Source: a virus
Strand: one strand, 5' to 3'
IMG/VR virus record: IMGVR_UViG_3300021956_000078
Span: 1-24,396 of that record
Length of the DNA stretch: 24,396 bases
Below the pieces are notes generated by a model. The model searched no databases and was not told where the DNA came from. It saw nothing but the letters and a program-made list of their open reading frames with translations. This document shows, piece by piece, positions 9,142 through 21,246 of the stretch (positions within the stretch are counted from its first letter, which is position 1; the number at the start of each line of letters is the position of its first letter). Both the position numbers and the translations under genes were made by a program.

Positions 9142-9284
9142 TTGAGATACGACTCCTGAAAAGATTTAAGTGCTTTGCCATATTCTTCGGCGATAAACAA
9201 CGCAAGTTTTTGTGTTGACCATAAAAATGCTCGATGCTTACGAAATAGTTTTTGTTGCCGGCGTCTAATGTGTCGAAGTTTCAT
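9138..9284 (-). CDS. Very small basic protein, 48 aa
   Basis: The ATG at 9282-9284 overlaps the helicase stop at 9281-9283, and its own stop (9138-9140) overlaps the next ATG. The product is very basic at its N-terminus (MKLRHIRRRQQKLFRKHRAF) and ends EYGKALKSFQESYLK. The double overlap fills the space between the helicase and the next gene exactly, which supports it despite its size. The local DNA is less GC-rich than the rest of the operon. Nucleic-acid binding is a guess from charge. Confidence 0.6.
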   Translation of the reverse strand: MKLRHIRRRQQKLFRKHRAFLWSTQKLALFIAEEYGKALKSFQESYLK

Positions 9285-10573
9285 TTCAAACTCTCCATGG
9301 CTATGTCAGATAGCGTTCGTTTGTCTTGTAGTGCGGCGAATATGCGCTCGTCCACGGTGCCTTTGGTCAACAAGACGTAGCACCAGACGTCATGTCGCTG
9401 GCCGCTGCGGTGCAGTCGACCGATCGATTGCTCGTACAGCTCGAGGCTCCATGGCAGGCTGAGCCAGACAAGGTGGCAGCCGCCGTGCTGGAGGTTGAGC
9501 CCGTGGCCGGCGGACTTGGGGTGCAGACATAGTAGGCGTACACGTCCGGCATTCCACTCGTCAATGCTCTCAACTGTTCTGGCGTCAGGGAAACGTCGCT
9601 TGAGTTCATTCAGTTCCTCGATGTAGTTGTAGAAGACGATCGTGTTGGCGTGCTGGTTCTCGTCCAACAGGTCGGCCAGCGCGTCGAACTTGTGCGACGA
9701 CAACTGCATGGCGCCCTGGTCGGTGTAGATGAAACCGCTGGCCAACTGCTGGAGCTTTTGCGTGACGACGGCAGCGTTCTGAGCGATGGCCGCCAAGTCG
9801 TCACCGAATTGCACCACGAAGTCTTTTTTCATGGTGTTGTAGTCGGTCATCTCCATCTCGCATTCCACCGGCACCGTGTGCAGGGGCGGCAGTTTGTCCT
9901 TGTACTCGCCAGGCTCCAGCACGAAGGTGGCCGGCTTGATGCGCGCCATCACCTTCTCGAGCGATCCTTGCATCGGCTCCCACTCGGTGTGCGTCCCACG
10001 CACGCGCTGCCAGAAGTACTGCTGCTGGAAGGCGCCTTTGCTGCGGCCAAGCAACCGCTGGTCAATGATCTTGCACTGCCCGAACACGTCCTCGAGACCG
10101 TTGCTAGTGAAGCTGCCGGTCAGGCCCCAGCGCACCTGGAATTGGTCGATGACTTTGTTGAGCGCCTTGAAGCGTTGGCCGCTGGGGTTCTTGAGGCGTG
10201 TGAGTTCGTCGAACACGATGCCAGTCACATGCGATAGGTCATGCTCGGCAAGCCATTGCAAGTTGTCGTAGTTGGTCACCACAATGTCAGCGCCAGAATA
10301 AAGCGCGGTCAATCGATTCGTTGGCGTTCCCACAGCCACGGCAAGTTCTAGCTTAGGCGCCCACTTGGCCGCCTCGATGGGCCATACGCTCACGCAGACG
10401 CGCTTGGGCGCCAGCACCAGCCAGCACGGGACATGGCCCTCACGCACCATGTCTCGCATGGCCGTCAGCGTGATGGCAGTCTTGCCGGCACCGACGGGCG
10501 CCAGCACCATGGCGCGGTCGTGCTCGAACAGGAAGTCAGCTGCGGCTTCTTGATACGGCCTTAACGAAAGCAT
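9281..10573 (-). CDS. SNF2-family DEAD/DEAH-type helicase/ATPase
   Basis: The product has 430 residues. I use ATG 10573, one codon inside the open frame, preceded by AAGGAAG; a TTG lies just before it. Helicase motifs are complete and in order: Walker A APVGAGKT (25-32), DEAD-box-type DELT (122-125), motif III-like GLTGSFTS (from 150), motif V SAGHGLNLQ (354-362) and motif VI QSIGRLHRSGQ (382-392). The RLHRSGQ form is characteristic of SNF2-type ATPases. Such phage proteins are thought to act on duplex DNA during replication or recombination. Its start overlaps the VRR-NUC gene by 38 bases, a pairing often seen in phages, suggesting joint action. Confidence 0.9.
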   Translation of the reverse strand: MLSLRPYQEAAADFLFEHDRAMVLAPVGAGKTAITLTAMRDMVREGHVPCWLVLAPKRVCVSVWPIEAAKWAPKLELAVAVGTPTNRLTALYSGADIVVTNYDNLQWLAEHDLSHVTGIVFDELTRLKNPSGQRFKALNKVIDQFQVRWGLTGSFTSNGLEDVFGQCKIIDQRLLGRSKGAFQQQYFWQRVRGTHTEWEPMQGSLEKVMARIKPATFVLEPGEYKDKLPPLHTVPVECEMEMTDYNTMKKDFVVQFGDDLAAIAQNAAVVTQKLQQLASGFIYTDQGAMQLSSHKFDALADLLDENQHANTIVFYNYIEELNELKRRFPDARTVESIDEWNAGRVRLLCLHPKSAGHGLNLQHGGCHLVWLSLPWSLELYEQSIGRLHRSGQRHDVWCYVLLTKGTVDERIFAALQDKRTLSDIAMESLK

Positions 10574-10823
10574 CAACTTCTTCCTTGGACTTTAATACTA
10601 TGTAGTTCTGACCCAGGCGCTGCATGTTGCGGGCAAACACCTCTTGCAGTGGGGACAGCACGCCGTGCGCGGCTTTGAGTTCAACGAAGACGACGCCGCC
10701 CTCGGGCAGCACGACGATGCGGTCGGCCACGCCCCGGTGCGCAGGGCTCACGAACTTGTAGGCGATGCCGCCGATCTCTTTCACCTTCTTGACTAGGTAC
10801 GCCTCGATTGCCGCTTCTTTCAT
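10536..10823 (-). CDS. VRR-NUC domain nuclease
   Basis: The product has 95 residues. The frame extends upstream to 10877, but ATG 10823 has an AAGGAG site 8 bases before it, and MKEAAIEAYLVKKVKEIGGI is the usual VRR-NUC beginning. The PD-(D/E)XK core is intact: VADRI with Asp34, and FVELK with Glu48 and Lys50, followed by LSPLQEVFARNMQRLGQNY. The family is known as stand-alone phage nucleases related to the FAN1 catalytic domain, cutting branched or flap DNA. It is the first gene of the minus-strand operon, downstream of a promoter-like TATACT at 10850-10855. Confidence 0.88.
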   Translation of the reverse strand: MKEAAIEAYLVKKVKEIGGIAYKFVSPAHRGVADRIVVLPEGGVVFVELKAAHGVLSPLQEVFARNMQRLGQNYIVLKSKEEVDAFVKAVSRSRS

Positions 10824-10926: not shown

Positions 10927-12051
10927 GTGCAACATTCAAATATCGTTGGCGGTTCGACCGCCAAGCGCGTCATCAACTGCCCCGGCTCAGTGGTGCTGGT
11001 GCAGAAGATGCCACCCCAAGGCAGTAGCAAGTACGCTGACGAGGGTACGCTCCTGCACGACACCATCGCTGACGTGCTGCACCACCTCAAAGAGCCCGAG
11101 GACTACCTGGGCCGCACCTACAACGATCAAGTCTTGACGCAAGAGCTGATTGATGAGAAGCTGCGCGTAGCGTTGAGCCTGCTCGACGAAGTAGACCCTA
11201 ACCAAGAGATGGTGTATGAAGTCGAAACGCGTGTCGGCTTTGGTGACATTCTTCCAGGTGTGTTTGGAAGCACTGACCTTATTGGCCGTATTGGCAGCCG
11301 GGCCATTGTCCTTGATTGGAAGTTTGGTGATGGTGTTGCTGTTGATGCTGACGAAAACCCCCAGCTGATGTTTTACGCAGCAGCGGCCATGCGCACGCCC
11401 GAGGCCATGTGGGCGTTTGAGGGTGCAACCGAGATCGAGTGCATCATCATCCAACCACCCGTCATGCGCCGCTGGGTGACAACGCCAGAGCGCATCGCCA
11501 AGTTCGAGCAGCAGCTGGTGGCCGCTGTCAAGACGGCCTTGAAGCCGGGCGCCCCGCTCGCCACTGGCGACCACTGCCGCTGGTGCTCCGCCAAGCCCAT
11601 CTGCCCGCAGATGAACGGCGCGATAGAGCGTGAGACGCAGCGCGTCGTGTCGCTACTGACGCCTGAGGAGCTGGGCGCGTGCCTCAAGCGCGCGGAAGAC
11701 CTCGAGACATACATCAACGACCTGCGGGCGCTGGCCTTCACAGTGCTCGAGAACAATGGTACAGTGCCAGGCTACAAGCTCGTCGCCAAGCGCGCTACAC
11801 GGCAGTGGCGTGACGACAAAAAAGCAGTCGAATGGCTGAAGACGCAAGGCGTCCTTAGTCCATTCAAAGAACCCGAGGTGCTTTCTCCGGCGGCAGCAGA
11901 GAAGGCCCTCAAAAAGAGCAAGGTGGCGTTGCCTGACGATCTCGTCGTGGCAGTGTCATCGGGCAGCACCTTGGTGCCGGAGAGCGATCCCCGGCCTGCG
12001 GCGCTTCAAATCGGGAAGCAGTTAACTGCGGCCCTTTCTAAACTAAAGTAA
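10927..12051 (+). CDS. DUF2800-like PD-(D/E)XK nuclease (Cas4/RecB-type)
   Basis: The open frame starts at 10765, but that would run through the divergent promoter. GTG 10927 has AAAGGAG 6 bases upstream and gives 374 residues. Motifs: C18 in NCPGS, then EGTLLHDTIADVL (His44), D117 in GSTDLIG, and D130 with K132 in VLDWKFGDG. Cysteines C217, C220 and C226 (CRWCSAKPIC) with C18 could hold an iron-sulfur cluster as in Cas4/AddB-type nucleases. In many phages a DUF2800 gene stands beside a DNA-binding protein and a family A polymerase, exactly as here, so a role in replication or recombination end-processing is likely. The C-terminal 100 residues are helical. Confidence 0.8.
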   Translation: MQHSNIVGGSTAKRVINCPGSVVLVQKMPPQGSSKYADEGTLLHDTIADVLHHLKEPEDYLGRTYNDQVLTQELIDEKLRVALSLLDEVDPNQEMVYEVETRVGFGDILPGVFGSTDLIGRIGSRAIVLDWKFGDGVAVDADENPQLMFYAAAAMRTPEAMWAFEGATEIECIIIQPPVMRRWVTTPERIAKFEQQLVAAVKTALKPGAPLATGDHCRWCSAKPICPQMNGAIERETQRVVSLLTPEELGACLKRAEDLETYINDLRALAFTVLENNGTVPGYKLVAKRATRQWRDDKKAVEWLKTQGVLSPFKEPEVLSPAAAEKALKKSKVALPDDLVVAVSSGSTLVPESDPRPAALQIGKQLTAALSKLK

Positions 12052-12717: not shown

Positions 12718-12876
12718 ATGCAGATCGACCTACACGTGAGTGAGATCAACGCCGCCATTGCCCTGTTCTCAGGCTTGGCGGAGAAAATTCGTGAGCAAGC
12801 CATTGCACAATCGACCCCGCCCGTGCCCCCACAAGAGCCGGTGTCCGAGGTCGAGAACGCTGGCGGTACTGACTAA
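12718..12876 (+). CDS. Small hypothetical protein, 52 aa
   Basis: The ATG at 12718 follows the previous stop by 7 bases; GAGGTCGTC just upstream gives a plausible ribosome site. The product is an amphipathic helix (LHVSEINAAIALFSGLAEKI) followed by a Pro/Glu-rich tail. No family is recognised. It shares the operon of the replication genes and ends 79 bases before the polymerase start chosen here. Those 79 bases contain no better feature. Confidence 0.5.
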   Translation: MQIDLHVSEINAAIALFSGLAEKIREQAIAQSTPPVPPQEPVSEVENAGGTD

Positions 12877-12955
12877 CGAATCGGGGCCGAAAGCGGATGC
12901 TGGCGCGTCGGGGGCATCCGACACAACGGTGCAGCGAGTAGGCCCCACCTATACC

Positions 12956-15775
12956 ATGTCAATCCTCTGGATCGATTTTGAAACCCGCAGCCGGTGCGAC
13001 TTGCCCGAGGCTGGGGTGTACAACTACGCGCAGGACGCGAGCACTGACGTGCTGTGCATGTCCTACGCCTTCAACGACGAGGAGGTGCGCACCTGGGTGC
13101 CCGGTGAGCCCTTCCCCGCCCGCGTGGGGCGTCACACCGGCCAGATCAGGGCGCACAACGCCGCGTTCGAGCGCTTGATCTTCTGGTACGTGCTCCAGAT
13201 CAATTACGACCTCGAGCAGTTCTACTGCACCGCCGCGCAGGCCCGCGCCAACTGCGCCCCTGGCTCGCTCGAAGACGTGGGCCGCTTCGCATCGGCCAAC
13301 ATGCGCAAGGACCATCGCGGCTCGCAGCTCATCCGCCTCCTCTCCATCCCGCAGGCCGACGGCAACTTCCGCCAGGACGCCGCGCTGATGCAAGAGATGA
13401 TCGAGTACTGCGAAATGGACGTCAACGCCATGCGCGCCGTCTCCAAGGCCATGCGCGACCTGACCGCTGACGAGCTGGCTGACTACCACGTCAACGAGCG
13501 CATCAACGACCGGGGCGTGCTGGTCGACACCGCCTTGGCCAAGGCCGCCATGCGCTACGCGCAGGACGAGCTGGTCGAAATTCAAGACGTGGTGGCCGAG
13601 GTTACGAACGGCGAGATCACCAGCGTGCGCAGCCCCAAGATGCGCGAGTGGGTGCTGGCGCGTGTCGGTGACGAGGCCAAGAAGCTGATGGTCGTGCACA
13701 AGGACGGCGAGGCCAAGTATTCAATCGACAAGACAGTGCGAGCTAACCTGCTCGCGATGGAGAATCCCGATGAAGTACCACCCGACGTGGCGGAAGTCAT
13801 CCAGTGCGCCGACGACCTCTGGGCGTCGTCGGTTGCGAAGTTCAGCCGCATGGCAGCGCTGGCAGACGTCGAAGATAGCCGAGTCCGAGGCGCTTTTGTA
13901 TTCGCTGGGGGTTCCGCCACTGGCCGTGCATCGAGCTATGGATTACAGGTGCACAATTTCACTCGCAAATGCGTTGAAGAACCTGATGCAGTACGCATGG
14001 CTATGGTCCGAGGACACGCCATCGTTCCCAAATATGGCAAGCGCGTCACCGACGTCCTCAAAGGCATGCTCCGACCCGCCATCACCCCAGCCCCCGGCAA
14101 ACAGCTTATTGTCGCGGACTGGTCGGCGATCGAAGCGCGTGTGACGCCTTGGCTCTCCAACTGCCCCGCTGGCGACAAGAAGTTGCACGTGTTTGCCAAG
14201 GGCGAAGACGTCTACAAGGTCAACGCCGCTGCAACCTTTCACACGACTTACGATCAGGTCAACAAAGACCAACGCCAGATCGGCAAGGTGCAGGAGCTCG
14301 CTTGTTTTTCCGCTGAAACCAAAGTCTTGACCAATAACGGAGTCAAGACTATAGTGGAGGTTCAATTAACTGATCAACTATGGGACGGTGTGGAATGGGT
14401 GACTCATCAGGGCGTGATTTACAAGGGCCAACAGCAAGTTATCAGCGTGTGCGGAACCGAGGTAACGCCGGATCATCTGATCAGCATCGGAAGCTCATGG
14501 AAGCCGGCATGGCAACTCGTTTCAAACAAACAGTTGCTGATCCAAGCGTTGGAAGCCGGTTCGGCTTTCTTACCGTCTTGGGCGTTGAGTTTCGCTTTCA
14601 AGGCGCCTGTCGAATGCGGATGGTTAGAGTCCAGTGTGATTGCGGTGCAGAACCGCATTTGGTCTACTTTTACAACCTTCTCAAAGGCGCGTCTACGCGG
14701 TGCTCTACGTGCGCAAAAAAAGCGGCAGGGTTTTGGCGAAAAGATTTTTTCAAATATGCCGATGCCTGTCCTGACGATGACCATCGACGGCGGCTACTCA
14801 ACCGGCTATCTGCTTGCAAAAACAGATGCCACAACCCCAAAGATCGAGGTTATCCAAACTACGGCGGCAGGGGGATATATTTATTTGAGCCCTGGCGCAC
14901 TGACAAAGCCGCATTTCTCCGATACGTTGTCACCCTTGACGGATGGGATCAGCCGCATCTTGAGCTGGATCGCATCGACGTCAACAAAGGTTATGAGCCG
15001 GGCAATCTGCGGTTTGTTACGCGGCAAATCAATCGAGACAATCAACGCAAAGTCCAAGACATGCAACGGTACATCCTCGAACTTGAGGCCCGTGTACGAC
15101 ATCTTGAACAGCGGCTCGCGCAATCGGTTCACCATTCTGACTGAGCAAGGCCCGTTGATTGTGCATAACTGCGGTTTCGCTGGCGGCGTGGGCGCCTTCG
15201 CGGCCATGGGCCGCATCTACGGCGTGAACCTGCCCGAGTCTGACGCGCGTCGCATGGTGGACGCCTGGCGCCGTGCCAACGCATGGTCGGTGCCGTACTG
15301 GCAGTCGCTTGAGGAAGCGTACACCCGCGCGATGCGCAACCGTGGCCATGAGTTCACCGCAGGCCGCGTGGCGTATCTTTTCGATGGCCAGCACCTTTGG
15401 TATGTACTGCCGTCTGGCCGCGTGCTATGCTACCCCTACGCTCGTTTGGAAAGCGATGGGATAACTTACGCCAAAGCATCGTGGAAACCCGCAGCGGACG
15501 CCAAAGAGTGGCCCCGCGCGCGGCTTTGGAAGGGTCTGGCGTGTGAGAATATCACCCAGGCCACCGCTAACGACATCCTGCGCCATTCGCTGCGTGAACT
15601 AGACGCGAAGAGGCTCGATGTGGTGCTGCATGTGCATGATGAAATCGTGGTTGAGTCTGATCAACCCGAGGCTGCGCAGGCGGTGCTCGAGCAAGTGATG
15701 ACGACCCCGCCCGCATGGGCATATGGGCTGCCGCTGGCCGTGGAAGGCCAAGTGATGCAGCGTTATGGAAAGTAA
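12956..15775 (+). CDS. Family A DNA polymerase containing an intein
   Basis: The precursor has 939 residues; removal of a 289-residue intein leaves about 650. ATG 12956 opens MSILWIDFETRS, exo motif I (Asp7, Glu9); the frame extends upstream, but no better start or strong ribosome site was found. Exo II is HNAAFE (67-72) and exo III YCEMDVNAM (151-159), so proofreading looks intact. Polymerase motif A is ADWSAIEAR (Asp388), motif B begins RQIGKVQELA (Arg440, Lys444) and continues after the intein as CGFAGGVGAF, and motif C is HVHDEIVVE (His894, Asp895, Glu896). The intein occupies residues 450-738. Flanking DNA is distinctly more GC-rich than the intein. It is the replicative polymerase of the phage and needs protein splicing to restore the O-helix. 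Confidence 0.93.
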   Translation: MSILWIDFETRSRCDLPEAGVYNYAQDASTDVLCMSYAFNDEEVRTWVPGEPFPARVGRHTGQIRAHNAAFERLIFWYVLQINYDLEQFYCTAAQARANCAPGSLEDVGRFASANMRKDHRGSQLIRLLSIPQADGNFRQDAALMQEMIEYCEMDVNAMRAVSKAMRDLTADELADYHVNERINDRGVLVDTALAKAAMRYAQDELVEIQDVVAEVTNGEITSVRSPKMREWVLARVGDEAKKLMVVHKDGEAKYSIDKTVRANLLAMENPDEVPPDVAEVIQCADDLWASSVAKFSRMAALADVEDSRVRGAFVFAGGSATGRASSYGLQVHNFTRKCVEEPDAVRMAMVRGHAIVPKYGKRVTDVLKGMLRPAITPAPGKQLIVADWSAIEARVTPWLSNCPAGDKKLHVFAKGEDVYKVNAAATFHTTYDQVNKDQRQIGKVQELACFSAETKVLTNNGVKTIVEVQLTDQLWDGVEWVTHQGVIYKGQQQVISVCGTEVTPDHLISIGSSWKPAWQLVSNKQLLIQALEAGSAFLPSWALSFAFKAPVECGWLESSVIAVQNRIWSTFTTFSKARLRGALRAQKKRQGFGEKIFSNMPMPVLTMTIDGGYSTGYLLAKTDATTPKIEVIQTTAAGGYIYLSPGALTKPHFSDTLSPLTDGISRILSWIASTSTKVMSRAICGLLRGKSIETINAKSKTCNGTSSNLRPVYDILNSGSRNRFTILTEQGPLIVHNCGFAGGVGAFAAMGRIYGVNLPESDARRMVDAWRRANAWSVPYWQSLEEAYTRAMRNRGHEFTAGRVAYLFDGQHLWYVLPSGRVLCYPYARLESDGITYAKASWKPAADAKEWPRARLWKGLACENITQATANDILRHSLRELDAKRLDVVLHVHDEIVVESDQPEAAQAVLEQVMTTPPAWAYGLPLAVEGQVMQRYGK
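14303..15169 (+). mobile_element. Intein in DNA polymerase motif B
   Basis: The in-frame insert has 289 residues. Block A begins at the splice residue Cys1 (CFSAETKVLTNNGVKTIVEV). Block B is GTEVTPDHLI with Thr55 and His58. Block F is VYDILNSGSRNRFTIL from residue 264, and block G ends LIVHN with His288 and Asn289, followed by Cys as the +1 extein residue. All key splicing residues are therefore present. The 190 residues between blocks B and F contain no LAGLIDADG or HNH motif in this frame and look like a Ser/Thr/Ala linker. The endonuclease is instead in another frame of the same DNA. Base composition is less GC-rich than the flanking polymerase, suggesting recent arrival. Confidence 0.92.
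14509..15144 (+). CDS. HNH-type homing endonuclease overprinted on the intein
   Basis: The product has 211 residues and is read in a different frame from the intein and polymerase. ATG 14509 has GGAAG 5 bases upstream; ATG 14497 (also after GGAAG) and ATG 14380 are alternatives. Residues 15-25 (GSRFGFLTVLG) and C43/C45 with C65/C68 form the small zinc-ribbon-like N-terminal module seen in phage HNH proteins. The catalytic region is ACKNRCHNPKDRGYPNYGGR (102-121), LELDRIDVNKGYEPGNLRF (151-169) and RQINRDNQR (172-180), a well-known form of phage HNH endonucleases. Residues 182-205 form a coiled coil encoded over intein block F. It ends 25 bases before the intein does. It probably cuts intein-less polymerase alleles; target and activity are inferred. 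Confidence 0.85.
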   Translation: MATRFKQTVADPSVGSRFGFLTVLGVEFRFQGACRMRMVRVQCDCGAEPHLVYFYNLLKGASTRCSTCAKKAAGFWRKDFFKYADACPDDDHRRRLLNRLSACKNRCHNPKDRGYPNYGGRGIYLFEPWRTDKAAFLRYVVTLDGWDQPHLELDRIDVNKGYEPGNLRFVTRQINRDNQRKVQDMQRYILELEARVRHLEQRLAQSVHHSD

Positions 15776-15826: not shown

Positions 15827-18130
15827 GTGGAGTTCTTAGATTTTATAGTAAACCTAGCCCCTGAGGGCGAAACCGCACTGATTGTGCGTCAAAAACCACA
15901 GCTCAAGGATCAAGAGCTGCAATTCCACGCCGATGGGGCCATCAAGTGCACCTGGCCGGCATATCTGCCCAGCAAGTGGAGAGACAACGGCTGGGCGTGG
16001 TACGGCAACACGGCGAGCTTTGTGATCGACCGCTTTGAGGAGGGCCGCGTCTCAGCGTCTGCCGCCAATTGCGACTACGTGCTGGTGATGGTGCTGGACG
16101 ACGTGGGCTCGGACAAAGTGCCCAACACCTGCCCGCTGCCGCCCACCTGGAAGATGGAAACCAGCCCCGGCAACTATCAGTGGGGCTACGCCTTTGACGT
16201 CGATAACCAGCCCACCAAACGCGAGTTCGCTGCGGCCATCAAAGCCATCGCCGCTGCGGGCTACACCGACGCTGGCGCCATTAACGCTGTGCGCAACTTC
16301 CGCCTGCCAGGCTCGGTCAACCTGAAGCCCGGCAAGGACAATTTCGCCGCGCAGCTGGTCGAGTTCACCCCCGCCCGCGCCTACACCTTGGCCCAGCTTT
16401 GCGAGGCCATGAACGTCACCTACGACGTCGCCACCGCTGACGAGTTCCGCCCCATCCGCATCAGCGACGACGGCACTGATGACGTGCTGGCGTGGCTCTC
16501 AGGCCAGGGCCTGCTAGTCTCACGCCCCAACCTCGAGGGCTGGTGCGGCATCATCTGCCCCAACAGTGCCGAGCACACCGATGGCAACCCCGAGGGCCGC
16601 TACCTGCCCACCAGCCGGGCGTTTGTCTGCTATCACTCGCACTGCGTCGACTTCGATAGCGCGGCGTTCCTCCAGTGGGTTGAGGCTAATGGTGGCCCAG
16701 CCCACCGCCCCGGCCTGCGCGACGAGCTGCTGGCCGCTAAGATGGCCGGCGTGTTCGACAAGATCAAACCCACCGAGGCGTTCCCCGACGAGGCGGCCAA
16801 GGCCATCGCCGAGGTGGAGCGCAAAGAGCTTGGCCGTATCGACAAGGCGGCATGGTATGAGCGCTTTGCTTATATTCAGGACGACGAGTCGTACTTTGAC
16901 ATGCAAGACCGCCGGGAGCTTAGCCGCGCCACGTTCAACGCGCTGTTCCGCCACGTTAGCTGCAAGTCTATTCACAATGGCCGTCGCATCGAGGCGTCGG
17001 TCTGCTTTGACGAGAACCGCCAGGCCATGGGCGCCCGCGCCTTGGTCGGTATCACCTACGCCGCCGGCGAGGGCGTGCTGGTGGCCCGCGATGGCGACGT
17101 CTACGGCAACCGCTGGCGCGACGCCAGACCGCCGATCGGGGCCGGTGGCGACATCACCCTCTGGCTGCGTCACTGCGAGGCGCTGGTGCCCGATCAACGC
17201 GAGCGCGAGCACCTTTTCAACATCATGGCGTTCAAGGTGCAGCACCCCGAGGTCAAGATCAACCACGCGGTGCTCCATGGCGGCGATCAGGGCTGTGGCA
17301 AGGACACCATGTGGGCACCGTTTATCTGGGCCGTGTGCGGCCCTCAGTTCAAAAACCGGGGCCTGCTCGACAACGACACCCTCGGGTCGCAGTGGGGTTA
17401 CCAGCTCGAGTCCGAGGTGCTGATCCTGAACGAGCTGAAAGAGCCCGAAGCGAAGGACCGCCGGGCGCTGGCCAACAAGCTGAAACCCATCATCGCCGCC
17501 CCTCCCGAGATGCTGACAGTCAATCGTAAGGGTTTACACCCATATGACATGCTGAACCGCATGTTTGTGCTGGCGTTCTCGAATGATCCAGTTCCGATTT
17601 CATTGGACAGCCAGGATCGCCGTTGGTTCTGCGTCTGGTCGACTGCGCCGCGCATGAACCCAGACGAAGCCGCCGCCATGTGGCGTTGGTACAAGTCGGG
17701 CGGGTATGAGGCCATCGGCCATTGGCTGCACCACCGCGACGTGAGCGCGTTCAATCCGTCGGCAGCGCCGGCCATGACTGAATTCAAGGCCAACCTCGTC
17801 GAGCATGGTATGAGCATGGCCGAGAGCTATCTGGTCGACTTGATGCGCGAGCGGCGCGGCGAGTTTGCCAAGGGCGTGGTCGGCTCGCCGTTCCATTCGC
17901 TATGCGATCGGGTGGCCTCCGGTGCACCTTCTGGCGTTAAGGTGCCCCAGGCGGCGTTGTTGCATGCGTTGAAGGAGGCCGGCTGGGTGGATTGTGGTCG
18001 CCTCAAGTCGCGCACCTTCGACACCAAAAAGCACATTTTCTGCGCCCCTGACATGATTCGCCACAGTAAGTCCGAGCTGCGCGACATGGTGGAGGAGGCG
18101 CCTTCCCCGCTCATGGTGCGCGTCAAATAA
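15827..18130 (+). CDS. Primase/helicase, D5-like SF3-type (DUF5906) C-terminal domain
   Basis: The product has 767 residues from GTG 15827, with GGAG 8 bases upstream. The N-terminal half has YVLVMVLDDVG (Asp91/Asp92) and AVRNFRLPGSVNLKPG (154-169), the layout of RepB/archaeo-eukaryotic-type primases. A central region has clustered Cys/His (WCGIICPNSAEHTDG and FVCYHSHCVDF) that could bind zinc. The C-terminal helicase has Walker A GGDQGCGKDT (485-494), followed by SEVLILNELKEPEAKDRRAL and NRMFVLAFSNDPVPISLD with the arginine region DRRWF. It would unwind and prime the phage DNA for the polymerase upstream. A terminator lies between it and the polymerase. Confidence 0.85.
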   Translation: MEFLDFIVNLAPEGETALIVRQKPQLKDQELQFHADGAIKCTWPAYLPSKWRDNGWAWYGNTASFVIDRFEEGRVSASAANCDYVLVMVLDDVGSDKVPNTCPLPPTWKMETSPGNYQWGYAFDVDNQPTKREFAAAIKAIAAAGYTDAGAINAVRNFRLPGSVNLKPGKDNFAAQLVEFTPARAYTLAQLCEAMNVTYDVATADEFRPIRISDDGTDDVLAWLSGQGLLVSRPNLEGWCGIICPNSAEHTDGNPEGRYLPTSRAFVCYHSHCVDFDSAAFLQWVEANGGPAHRPGLRDELLAAKMAGVFDKIKPTEAFPDEAAKAIAEVERKELGRIDKAAWYERFAYIQDDESYFDMQDRRELSRATFNALFRHVSCKSIHNGRRIEASVCFDENRQAMGARALVGITYAAGEGVLVARDGDVYGNRWRDARPPIGAGGDITLWLRHCEALVPDQREREHLFNIMAFKVQHPEVKINHAVLHGGDQGCGKDTMWAPFIWAVCGPQFKNRGLLDNDTLGSQWGYQLESEVLILNELKEPEAKDRRALANKLKPIIAAPPEMLTVNRKGLHPYDMLNRMFVLAFSNDPVPISLDSQDRRWFCVWSTAPRMNPDEAAAMWRWYKSGGYEAIGHWLHHRDVSAFNPSAAPAMTEFKANLVEHGMSMAESYLVDLMRERRGEFAKGVVGSPFHSLCDRVASGAPSGVKVPQAALLHALKEAGWVDCGRLKSRTFDTKKHIFCAPDMIRHSKSELRDMVEEAPSPLMVRVK

Positions 18131-20125: not shown

Positions 20126-20146
20126 TTTTGCTACCTAGTAGCAAAA
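20126..20146. repeat. Perfect 9-base inverted repeat TTTTGCTAC/GTAGCAAAA
   Basis: TTTTGCTAC (20126-20134) and GTAGCAAAA (20138-20146) flank a 3-base loop. The left half plus two bases (TTTTGCTACCT) recurs at 20385-20395. It lies between the small-gene promoter and the first TTGTCCACG box. It could be an operator or a cruciform-forming element of an origin. Confidence 0.5.
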
Positions 20147-20202
20147 AACCTCGGTTGTGGGTGATCTGCGGATGATGGATGGATAGCGGAAAAGCGAGGA
20201 GG

Positions 20203-20604
20203 TTGTCCACGTCGAGGCCCGCATGAAATAAGGGCTGGCGGGCTTTGTGGATAATGTGGACTATTATTAGATATCATATCAGTTGAATGTAAGTGTATAC
20301 AATCTGACAGAATATGGGGCTGCGTTGCGCTCCGTGGAGCCACGCTAGTACCCTGTTTTCAAAAAGTTGTCCACGGAGGCCTCTTTTTGCTACCTTTTTT
20401 CTCCTAAGCCTTTGATTTATAAGGCTTTTTTCCGTGGACAATTCTTTGTCCACGCGTTTGACCCACAAGATTGACCACGCGCACGCCAGCGCCAGAGCTT
20501 GGTGGACATTGTGGACAATCAGTCAATCAGTTGTCCACGTTGTCCACGCTGGTGCGTGGCTGCGCGGCCAAGGCCTTGGGGCTGGGTTGTCCACGTTGTC
20601 CATG
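20203..20604. repeat. Array of DnaA-box-like TTGTCCACG 9-mers
   Basis: Exact TTGTCCACG occurs on the plus strand at 20203, 20367, 20446, 20531, 20540 and 20587, and on the minus strand at 20433-20441. Near copies are TTATCCACA (minus, 20246-20254, the exact E. coli DnaA box), TAGTCCACA (minus, 20255-20263), TTGACCACG (20471), TTGTCCACA (minus, 20510-20518) and TTGTCCATG (20596). Several are head-to-tail without spacer (20531/20540, 20587/20596). One pair is an inverted repeat with a 4-base gap (20433-20454). Confidence 0.85.
20406..20431 (+). terminator. Terminator-like hairpin within the origin region
   Basis: AAGCCTT (20406-20412) pairs with AAGGCTT (20421-20427) around an 8-base loop, followed by T to 20431. 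The stem is short with few GC pairs, so strength is uncertain. No plus-strand gene lies upstream before the primase-helicase, so it may end an untranslated transcript or be a structural element. Confidence 0.4.
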
Positions 20605-20683
20605 GAATTCGGGTTTTCAGATTTCGGCCCCCGGGTAGGGCCCTGGGCCTGGCCGGTCCGGCGGCGGAGGGGCTGCAAACAAA

Positions 20684-20717
20684 TTATTTTTATTTTTATT
20701 TTTATTTTTAATTTTTT
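20684..20717. repeat. AT-only tract with four tandem TTTTTA units
   Basis: Four perfect 6-base TTTTTA repeats cover 20687-20710 within a 34-base stretch containing no G or C. It stands in a GC-rich genome and next to a GC-rich block (20641-20675). It looks like a DNA-unwinding element or UP-type element upstream of the terminase genes. Confidence 0.8.
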
Positions 20718-20760
20718 CAGTTACCATCCGAACCACGCCATCGCGCGGCAAGGAGGAATC

Positions 20761-21246
20761 TTGTTCAAGTCAATACCGCTCACGTTGCGTGAAGTCAAAG
20801 CAACCGAAGCGACACTCACGCGCATTTACGACGCAGCCAAAATCGGACTGCGTGGTGACAATCTGGCGCTGGCTGCCGGCATGCGGCCTGAGGAGTACCG
20901 GCGACTGACGCAGCTAGACGAGATCGCCGCGTTGGCCGAACTCAAGGGCCGCGCCGACGGCGAGTTCGAGATCAGCACCGAGTTGCACAAGGCTGCCATG
21001 TCTGGCGACGCCAAGGCCGCACTCGCCATCCTGCAAAACGTCCACGGCTGGGTGGCCAAGCAGGCCATCACGGTCGACGTCAACCAGTCCATCAGCATCA
21101 CGGCAGCACTTGCCGAAGCGCAAAAGCGCGTCCTAGACGTCATCGACGTCGAGGCCAAGACAAACCAATTGGAGAATGACCTTGACAATCCTGTACTTGA
21201 GCATCGTGTTGCTTCTAGCGCTGTGGGCGATCGACACGCTGTATAG
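20761..21246 (+). CDS. Putative terminase small subunit
   Basis: The frame is open from GTG 20434, but that would read through the repeat array and AT tract. TTG 20761 has AAGGAGG 4 bases upstream and gives 161 residues. The N-terminal part (ATLTRIYDAAKIGLRGDNLA, then LAAGMRPEEYRRLTQLDE) looks like a helix-turn-helix DNA-recognition region. It is followed by a helical middle (KAAMSGDAKAALAILQNVHG) common in phage small terminases, and a C-terminus that would oligomerise or contact the large subunit. It lies directly before the large subunit gene. It would recognise the packaging site, possibly in the adjacent repeat region. Confidence 0.7.
   Translation: MFKSIPLTLREVKATEATLTRIYDAAKIGLRGDNLALAAGMRPEEYRRLTQLDEIAALAELKGRADGEFEISTELHKAAMSGDAKAALAILQNVHGWVAKQAITVDVNQSISITAALAEAQKRVLDVIDVEAKTNQLENDLDNPVLEHRVASSAVGDRHAV

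Follow-up and report, generated by a model that had tools for sequence, protein, structure and literature searches.

According to the account in PMC4234260, which draws on Ziegelin and Lanka (1995) and Yeo et al. (2002), a winged-helix domain of the phage P4 alpha protein binds the repeats of the origin, and unwinding and priming follow. Initiators of mobile elements are likewise matched to an iteron array of their own in the Rep-iteron origins of SaPI/PICI elements, those of SaPI having helicase activity, and in PLE with RepA and its iterons (PMC7145576). Iterons that diverge along with their reader are already known from geminiviruses, in which closely related viruses have different iterons and correspondingly divergent reading parts of Rep (PMC12548392). 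Here, a cluster of nine-base repeats in a 24.4-kb virus fragment (the window), belonging to a phage genome of roughly 37-39 kb, was compared with these systems. The repeats are probably the iterons of a phage replication origin to which the primase-helicase encoded by the phage itself binds, in the manner of P4 (probability about 0.86). Binding of the 9-mers by this protein, taken alone, is somewhat more probable than the combined reading, and a replication start at the array is less so.

As in P4 alpha, primase, helicase and a winged-helix domain for repeat binding would be united in one polypeptide, the domain being predicted here and its binding proposed. The P4 primase is described as the bacterial Toprim type (PMC4234260), whereas the N-terminus of the window protein is weakly RepB_primase-like. 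The repeat sequence differs as well, and in the present phages its letters vary widely among relatives, following residues of the wing. The array may be said to work like a P4-type iteron origin; strict family membership is not established, since it would depend on the type of the primase domain and on structural resemblance to the P4 domain. The SaPI, PICI and PLE initiators belong to other protein families (PLE RepA is of the RepA_N type) and serve satellites, whereas the window derives from a free-standing podovirus-like phage. Geminivirus Rep is an unrelated protein, a rolling-circle initiator of small single-stranded DNA plant viruses.

The array occupies an intergenic region, with small leftward genes on one side and the rightward terminase (late) genes on the other (Table 1). 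An earlier note, made from the DNA letters alone, had described at least seven exact 9-mers and about five near copies within some 400 bases, an exact DnaA-box copy, tandem pairs with 9-base period and an AT-only tract behind them, and all of these were recovered. The seven exact copies of TTGTCCACG are the only ones in the window and are confined to 20203-20595; in 100 shuffles the mean count was 0.31 and the largest 2. Five near copies (TTATCCACA, TAGTCCACA, TTGACCACG, TTGTCCACA and TTGTCCATG) lie among them, of which TTATCCACA is the one perfect DnaA box, and three neighbouring pairs have a period of exactly 9 bp (starts 20246/20255, 20531/20540 and 20587/20596). The AT-only tract of 37 nt is the longest such run of the window, the runner-up measuring 12 nt. 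The array is thus clustered, intergenic and present once per genome; in two other phage contigs that were checked, the exact copies of their motif (TGACCCAAA) were likewise confined to a single array. In contrast to the placement beside the primase in the earlier note, the gene adjoining the array encodes the terminase small subunit (TerS), and the primase gene ends about 2.1 kb away. Single-strand folding of the AT side gave a stability no greater than that of shuffles, and searches for Rfam families and tRNAs gave no match.

Table 1. Features of the proposed origin, its proposed initiator and the adjoining terminase gene (window coordinates).
Feature	Position	Strand	Basis
Primase-helicase, 767 aa, proposed initiator	15827..18130	+	DUF5906 (9e-11); NrS-1 profile match
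C-terminal winged-helix domain, residues 640-767, proposed origin-binding domain	17744..18127	+	AlphaFold2, pLDDT 80, about 90 in core
Wing codons, residues 727-732 (K727, R729, D732)	18005..18022	+	Track motif positions 6, 8, 4
Putative origin iteron array, 12 nine-base repeats (7 exact TTGTCCACG, 5 near)	20203..20604		Motif counts; same-place arrays in about 190 relatives
Iteron TTGTCCACG	20203..20211	+	Exact copy
Tandem iteron pair TTATCCACA/TAGTCCACA, 9-bp period	20246..20263	-	Near copies; matching inverted pair in L090/L091 at about the same distance from terS
Iteron TTGTCCACG	20367..20375	+	Exact copy
Iteron TTGTCCACG	20433..20441	-	Exact copy
Iteron TTGTCCACG	20446..20454	+	Exact copy
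Near copy TTGACCACG	20471..20479	+	Near-copy scan
Near copy TTGTCCACA	20510..20518	-	Near-copy scan
Tandem iteron pair TTGTCCACG TTGTCCACG	20531..20548	+	Exact copies
Tandem iteron pair TTGTCCACG TTGTCCATG	20587..20604	+	Exact and near copy; again nearly identical to L090/L091 from 20604
37-nt AT-only tract, candidate unwinding element	20681..20717		AT runs of at least 12 nt common before terS in relatives
Terminase small subunit (TerS), TTG start at 20761, Shine-Dalgarno AAGGAGG at 20750	20761..21246	+	Excluded as main motif determinant

The earlier note had also proposed cumulative GC skew as a check. In the 24.4-kb window the curve climbs through the array without a minimum there, and in four long relatives and one complete isolate genome the minima were located away from the array. 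Skew was dropped as uninformative in all of these.

The proposed initiator is predicted to combine a helicase core with a C-terminal winged helix in one protein. Its residues 459-660 match the primase-helicase of phage NrS-1 (PDB 6k9c, 6k9e) in a profile comparison (E 1.7e-11), and the N-terminus scored 22.5 bits against PF16793 (RepB_primase), under the cut-off of 24.3. Due to the fact that the full-length AlphaFold model was too poor (mean pLDDT 60), the C-terminal domain was folded alone. The predicted winged helix consists of helices at residues 664-675, 689-698 and 708-717 and strands at 721-726 and 735-739; residues 727, 729 and 732 are placed in the loop between the two strands, which is the wing, and the segment 720-748 forms the wing region. 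A sequence search of this domain against solved structures gave no meaningful match, and Foldseek returned nothing below E 0.1. A second fold comparison yielded generic winged helices at Z 4-6.5; the C-terminal region of the NrS-1 protein was among them at Z 4.3, a match of the same common kind, and the origin-binding domain of P4 was absent among the fold matches listed.

Further replication genes are encoded in the window. The DNA polymerase A gene (12740-15775) contains an insert at about 14300-15170, inside the polymerase domain, which begins with CFSAETKVL, ends with VHNC, is lower in GC and matches a PHROG endonuclease (phrog_93); it is probably an intein. A gene for an SNF2-type helicase (PF00176) is located on the minus strand at 9281-10576, and the replication block of phage DSL-LC05 likewise carries an SNF2 helicase. 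A phage-encoded DnaA domain IV was not found in the window. One relative, L088 (MW202483.1), encodes at 11424-11720 a 98-aa protein that is a bare DnaA domain IV helix-turn-helix (PF08299, 1e-17), and its own array is not DnaA-like despite this protein. The small leftward open reading frames were also considered as source of the array binder and were ruled out, as they are not conserved among the relatives.

The location of the array allows another function to be considered, in which the primase-helicase would bind it mainly as a regulator, either of a repressor/operator field between divergent genes or of copy control, and not for the start of replication. The array region does divide the leftward small genes from the rightward late genes, and three promoter-like sites were counted versus 0.9 expected. 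Against a purely regulatory role stand the nature of the binder, a primase-helicase, the AT tract adjoining the array, and an anatomy that is that of known iteron origins. Regulation as the main role is therefore unlikely; the regulatory and origin roles may coexist.

Relatives of the phage were collected by a TerL search, which led to 80 viral contigs, and by primase searches, which added several hundred further places. In nearly all relatives that span the region an array of 9-mers is found just upstream of terS. Motifs were called with a register-limited consensus finder. Among 189 unique same-locus arrays the 9-mer varies between phages and reads TTGTCCACA, TGACCCAAA, TGACCCACA, TGACTCACA, TAGCCAACA, TTGCCTACA, TTGTCCATA, TAGCCGACA, TTGCCCACA or TGACCGAAA, besides others. 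The 126 well-defined arrays have 10.7 sites on average, and adjacent sites most often follow one another at exactly 9 bp (453 adjacent pairs). Within 150 nt before terS, 169 of the 189 relatives have an AT run of at least 12 nt, the median run being 15 compared with 5 inside terS. A second repeat family of the CACTAACTTAG type occurs upstream of terS in L054, L059, L064, L067, L086, L163, L241, L315 and L316, in several of them beside the main array.

Both the place and the architecture of the array are conserved and its letters are not, which makes it a poor fit to a site for the conserved host DnaA. A chromosomal-type origin, at which host DnaA would bind boxes of the TTGTCCACG and TTATCCACA kind and recruit the host replisome, is nevertheless suggested by the likeness of the repeats to the DnaA boxes of high-GC bacteria, by the one perfect box and by the AT tract alongside. 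In the relatives, however, 164 of the 189 arrays lack the strict box TTWTNCACA and 127 lack its relaxed form TTRTCCACR; phages with near-identical flanks have TGACCCAAA instead, the repeat letters track a phage protein (see below), and the phage brings its own primase-helicase and DNA polymerase. Dependence on host DnaA is accordingly very unlikely, and the DnaA-box likeness of TTGTCCACG is best read as incidental. Thus, the repeat-built replication origin proposed in the earlier note is well supported and its chromosomal type is not. The binder had been left there between host DnaA and a phage initiator; the letters favour the latter, since they follow residues 727, 729 and 732 of the primase-helicase and are not kept by the relatives as DnaA boxes.

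A natural exchange of motif and proposed reader was found between the window and its close relatives L090, L091 and L092, in which the flanking DNA is 93-98% identical to that of the window and the identity resumes at the very end of the array. The arrays of L090 and L091 are built from TGACCCAAA as opposed to TTGTCCACG in the window, and they contain an inverted tandem pair and a final direct tandem pair at distances from terS similar to those in the window. The primase-helicases of the window and L091 are 93% identical, with 53 of 767 residues differing. Of these differences 19 fall into the 29 residues of the segment 720-748, compared with 19 in the 650 residues at positions 1-650 (Fisher p 4e-17 when 720-748 is set against all other residues).

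These relatives also bear on the possibility that the array is a packaging site (pac or cos) bound by the TerS protein encoded directly downstream. Packaging sites are often located in or near terS, the array lies directly upstream of this gene, and the TerS of phage DSL-LC05 is Sf6-like. However, over residues 1-136 the TerS of the window is the same as that of L090 and L091 despite the different motif, and TerS was thereby ruled out as the main determinant of the motif. Over 91 loci the TerS columns reached less than half the mutual-information excess of the best primase column, a weak tracking of the motif for a gene located closer to the array than that of the primase. A packaging site is thus largely refuted and highly improbable.

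In the same 91 loci mutual information with the motif is highest at primase residues 732, 727, 745, 729, 726 and 723; column 458, which ranks fourth, is the sole listed one outside the C-terminal domain. When backbone distance was controlled for, the partial correlation with motif distance was 0.48 at primase residues 720-733, 0.20 in the next best window of residues, 0.11 in the best TerS window and 0.10 at primase residues 750-763. Out of 347 variable columns of primase and TerS, the best is residue 729 for motif position 8, residue 732 for position 4 and residue 727 for position 6. Since the repeat letters vary in about 190 related phages together with these three residues, the reader is taken to be the phage primase-helicase and not DnaA. 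Joint transfer by recombination of the primase 3' end and the array, only about 2 kb apart, is a very improbable sole cause of the covariation, even if the difference between the window and L091 resembles a replaced block, because the signal is strongest at residues 720-733 and weakens toward the gene end, nearer the array, the adjacent TerS carries little of it, and specific residues are coupled to the same bases in different lineages (S727 with G6 in three, loss of R729 with loss of C8 in seven pairs).

Rules were derived from the first set of loci and written down before 103 new loci were scanned: R729 with C8, G729 with A8 and S729 with T8; D732 with T4, otherwise C4; and S727 with G6, K727 with C6. 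In the new loci R729 went with C8 in 94 of 98 cases, the four misses being the second repeat family caught by the motif finder, and G729 with A8 (2/2) and S729 with T8 (3/3) were found throughout. S727 was accompanied by G6 (4/4) and K727 by C6 (49/51). D732 was paired with T4 in 18 of 25 loci and a neutral residue at 732 with C4 in 75 of 75; E732 was paired with T4 (3/3), contrary to the letter of the second rule, which suggests that any acidic residue at 732 acts alike. Many of the new loci are related to each other, so these fractions are non-independent trials, and the following pair test is the corrected version. Two loci from genome contigs found later fit the rules as well, namely L370 (A727/R729/T732) with TTGCTTACA and L373 (K727/R729/D732) with TTGTCCACA.

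For the pair test, a tree was built from primase residues 350-700, leaving out the C-terminal domain. On this tree of 189 relatives, 56 changes of the full motif are counted. Independent pairs with differing bases gave 7:0 in favour of agreement for position 8 against residue 729, 11:0 with three ties for position 4 against an acidic residue 732, and about 6:0 with three ties for position 6 against K727, where the sign test is weak (median p 0.03); for G6 against S727 the result was 3:0, three pairs being too few for significance. No clear partner residue was seen for motif positions 2, 3, 5 and 9. The code is incomplete, as is apparent from the 18 of 25 loci for D732 and from the clade L176-L223 (e.g. 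L185, L187, L189 and L193), in which the wing RLASREYQT goes with TAGCCAACA, TGACCCACA, TTGCCAACA or degenerate and nearly lost arrays. This clade may be read as a case of recent switching or of relaxed specificity. Either positions 2, 3 and 6 depend on further residues, or these phages are recent recombinants.

For the origin read by the primase-helicase, the following sequence of events is proposed. The winged helix at its C-terminus would attach the protein to the 9-mers, and bases 4, 6 and 8 of T-N-R-Y-N-N-A-N-N would be read by the loop of the wing (residues about 726-735). The resulting oligomer would open the adjoining AT tract, be loaded there as replicative helicase and then prime DNA synthesis, in the manner of the P4 alpha protein. 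Drift would affect repeats and initiator jointly, so that the repeat letters differ among close relatives, and the letters of the window lineage would happen to be TTGTCCACG and hence DnaA-box-like.

More tentatively, and with odds somewhat short of even, the wing may hold a compact and largely modular code (727 for base 6, 729 for base 8 and 732 for base 4) whose specificity is switched frequently within one phage family, as in the 56 changes, perhaps owing to competition with co-infecting phages or with satellites that parasitise the origin, and one of these specificities may have converged on the DnaA box. In a search of open-licence papers, no phage primase-helicase with such a code was encountered.

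Clustered 9-mers that resemble DnaA boxes are no sure sign of host DnaA in a phage. The predicted residue-to-base table can be tested with natural protein pairs. A scan of a genome collection for the host matched metagenome-assembled contigs only, two of them from Rhodoferax. The analysis provides a probable replication origin, together with a named initiator, that applies to a large freshwater family of podovirus-like phages of uncertain host, and the cause of such rapid changes in origin specificity becomes a question in its own right.
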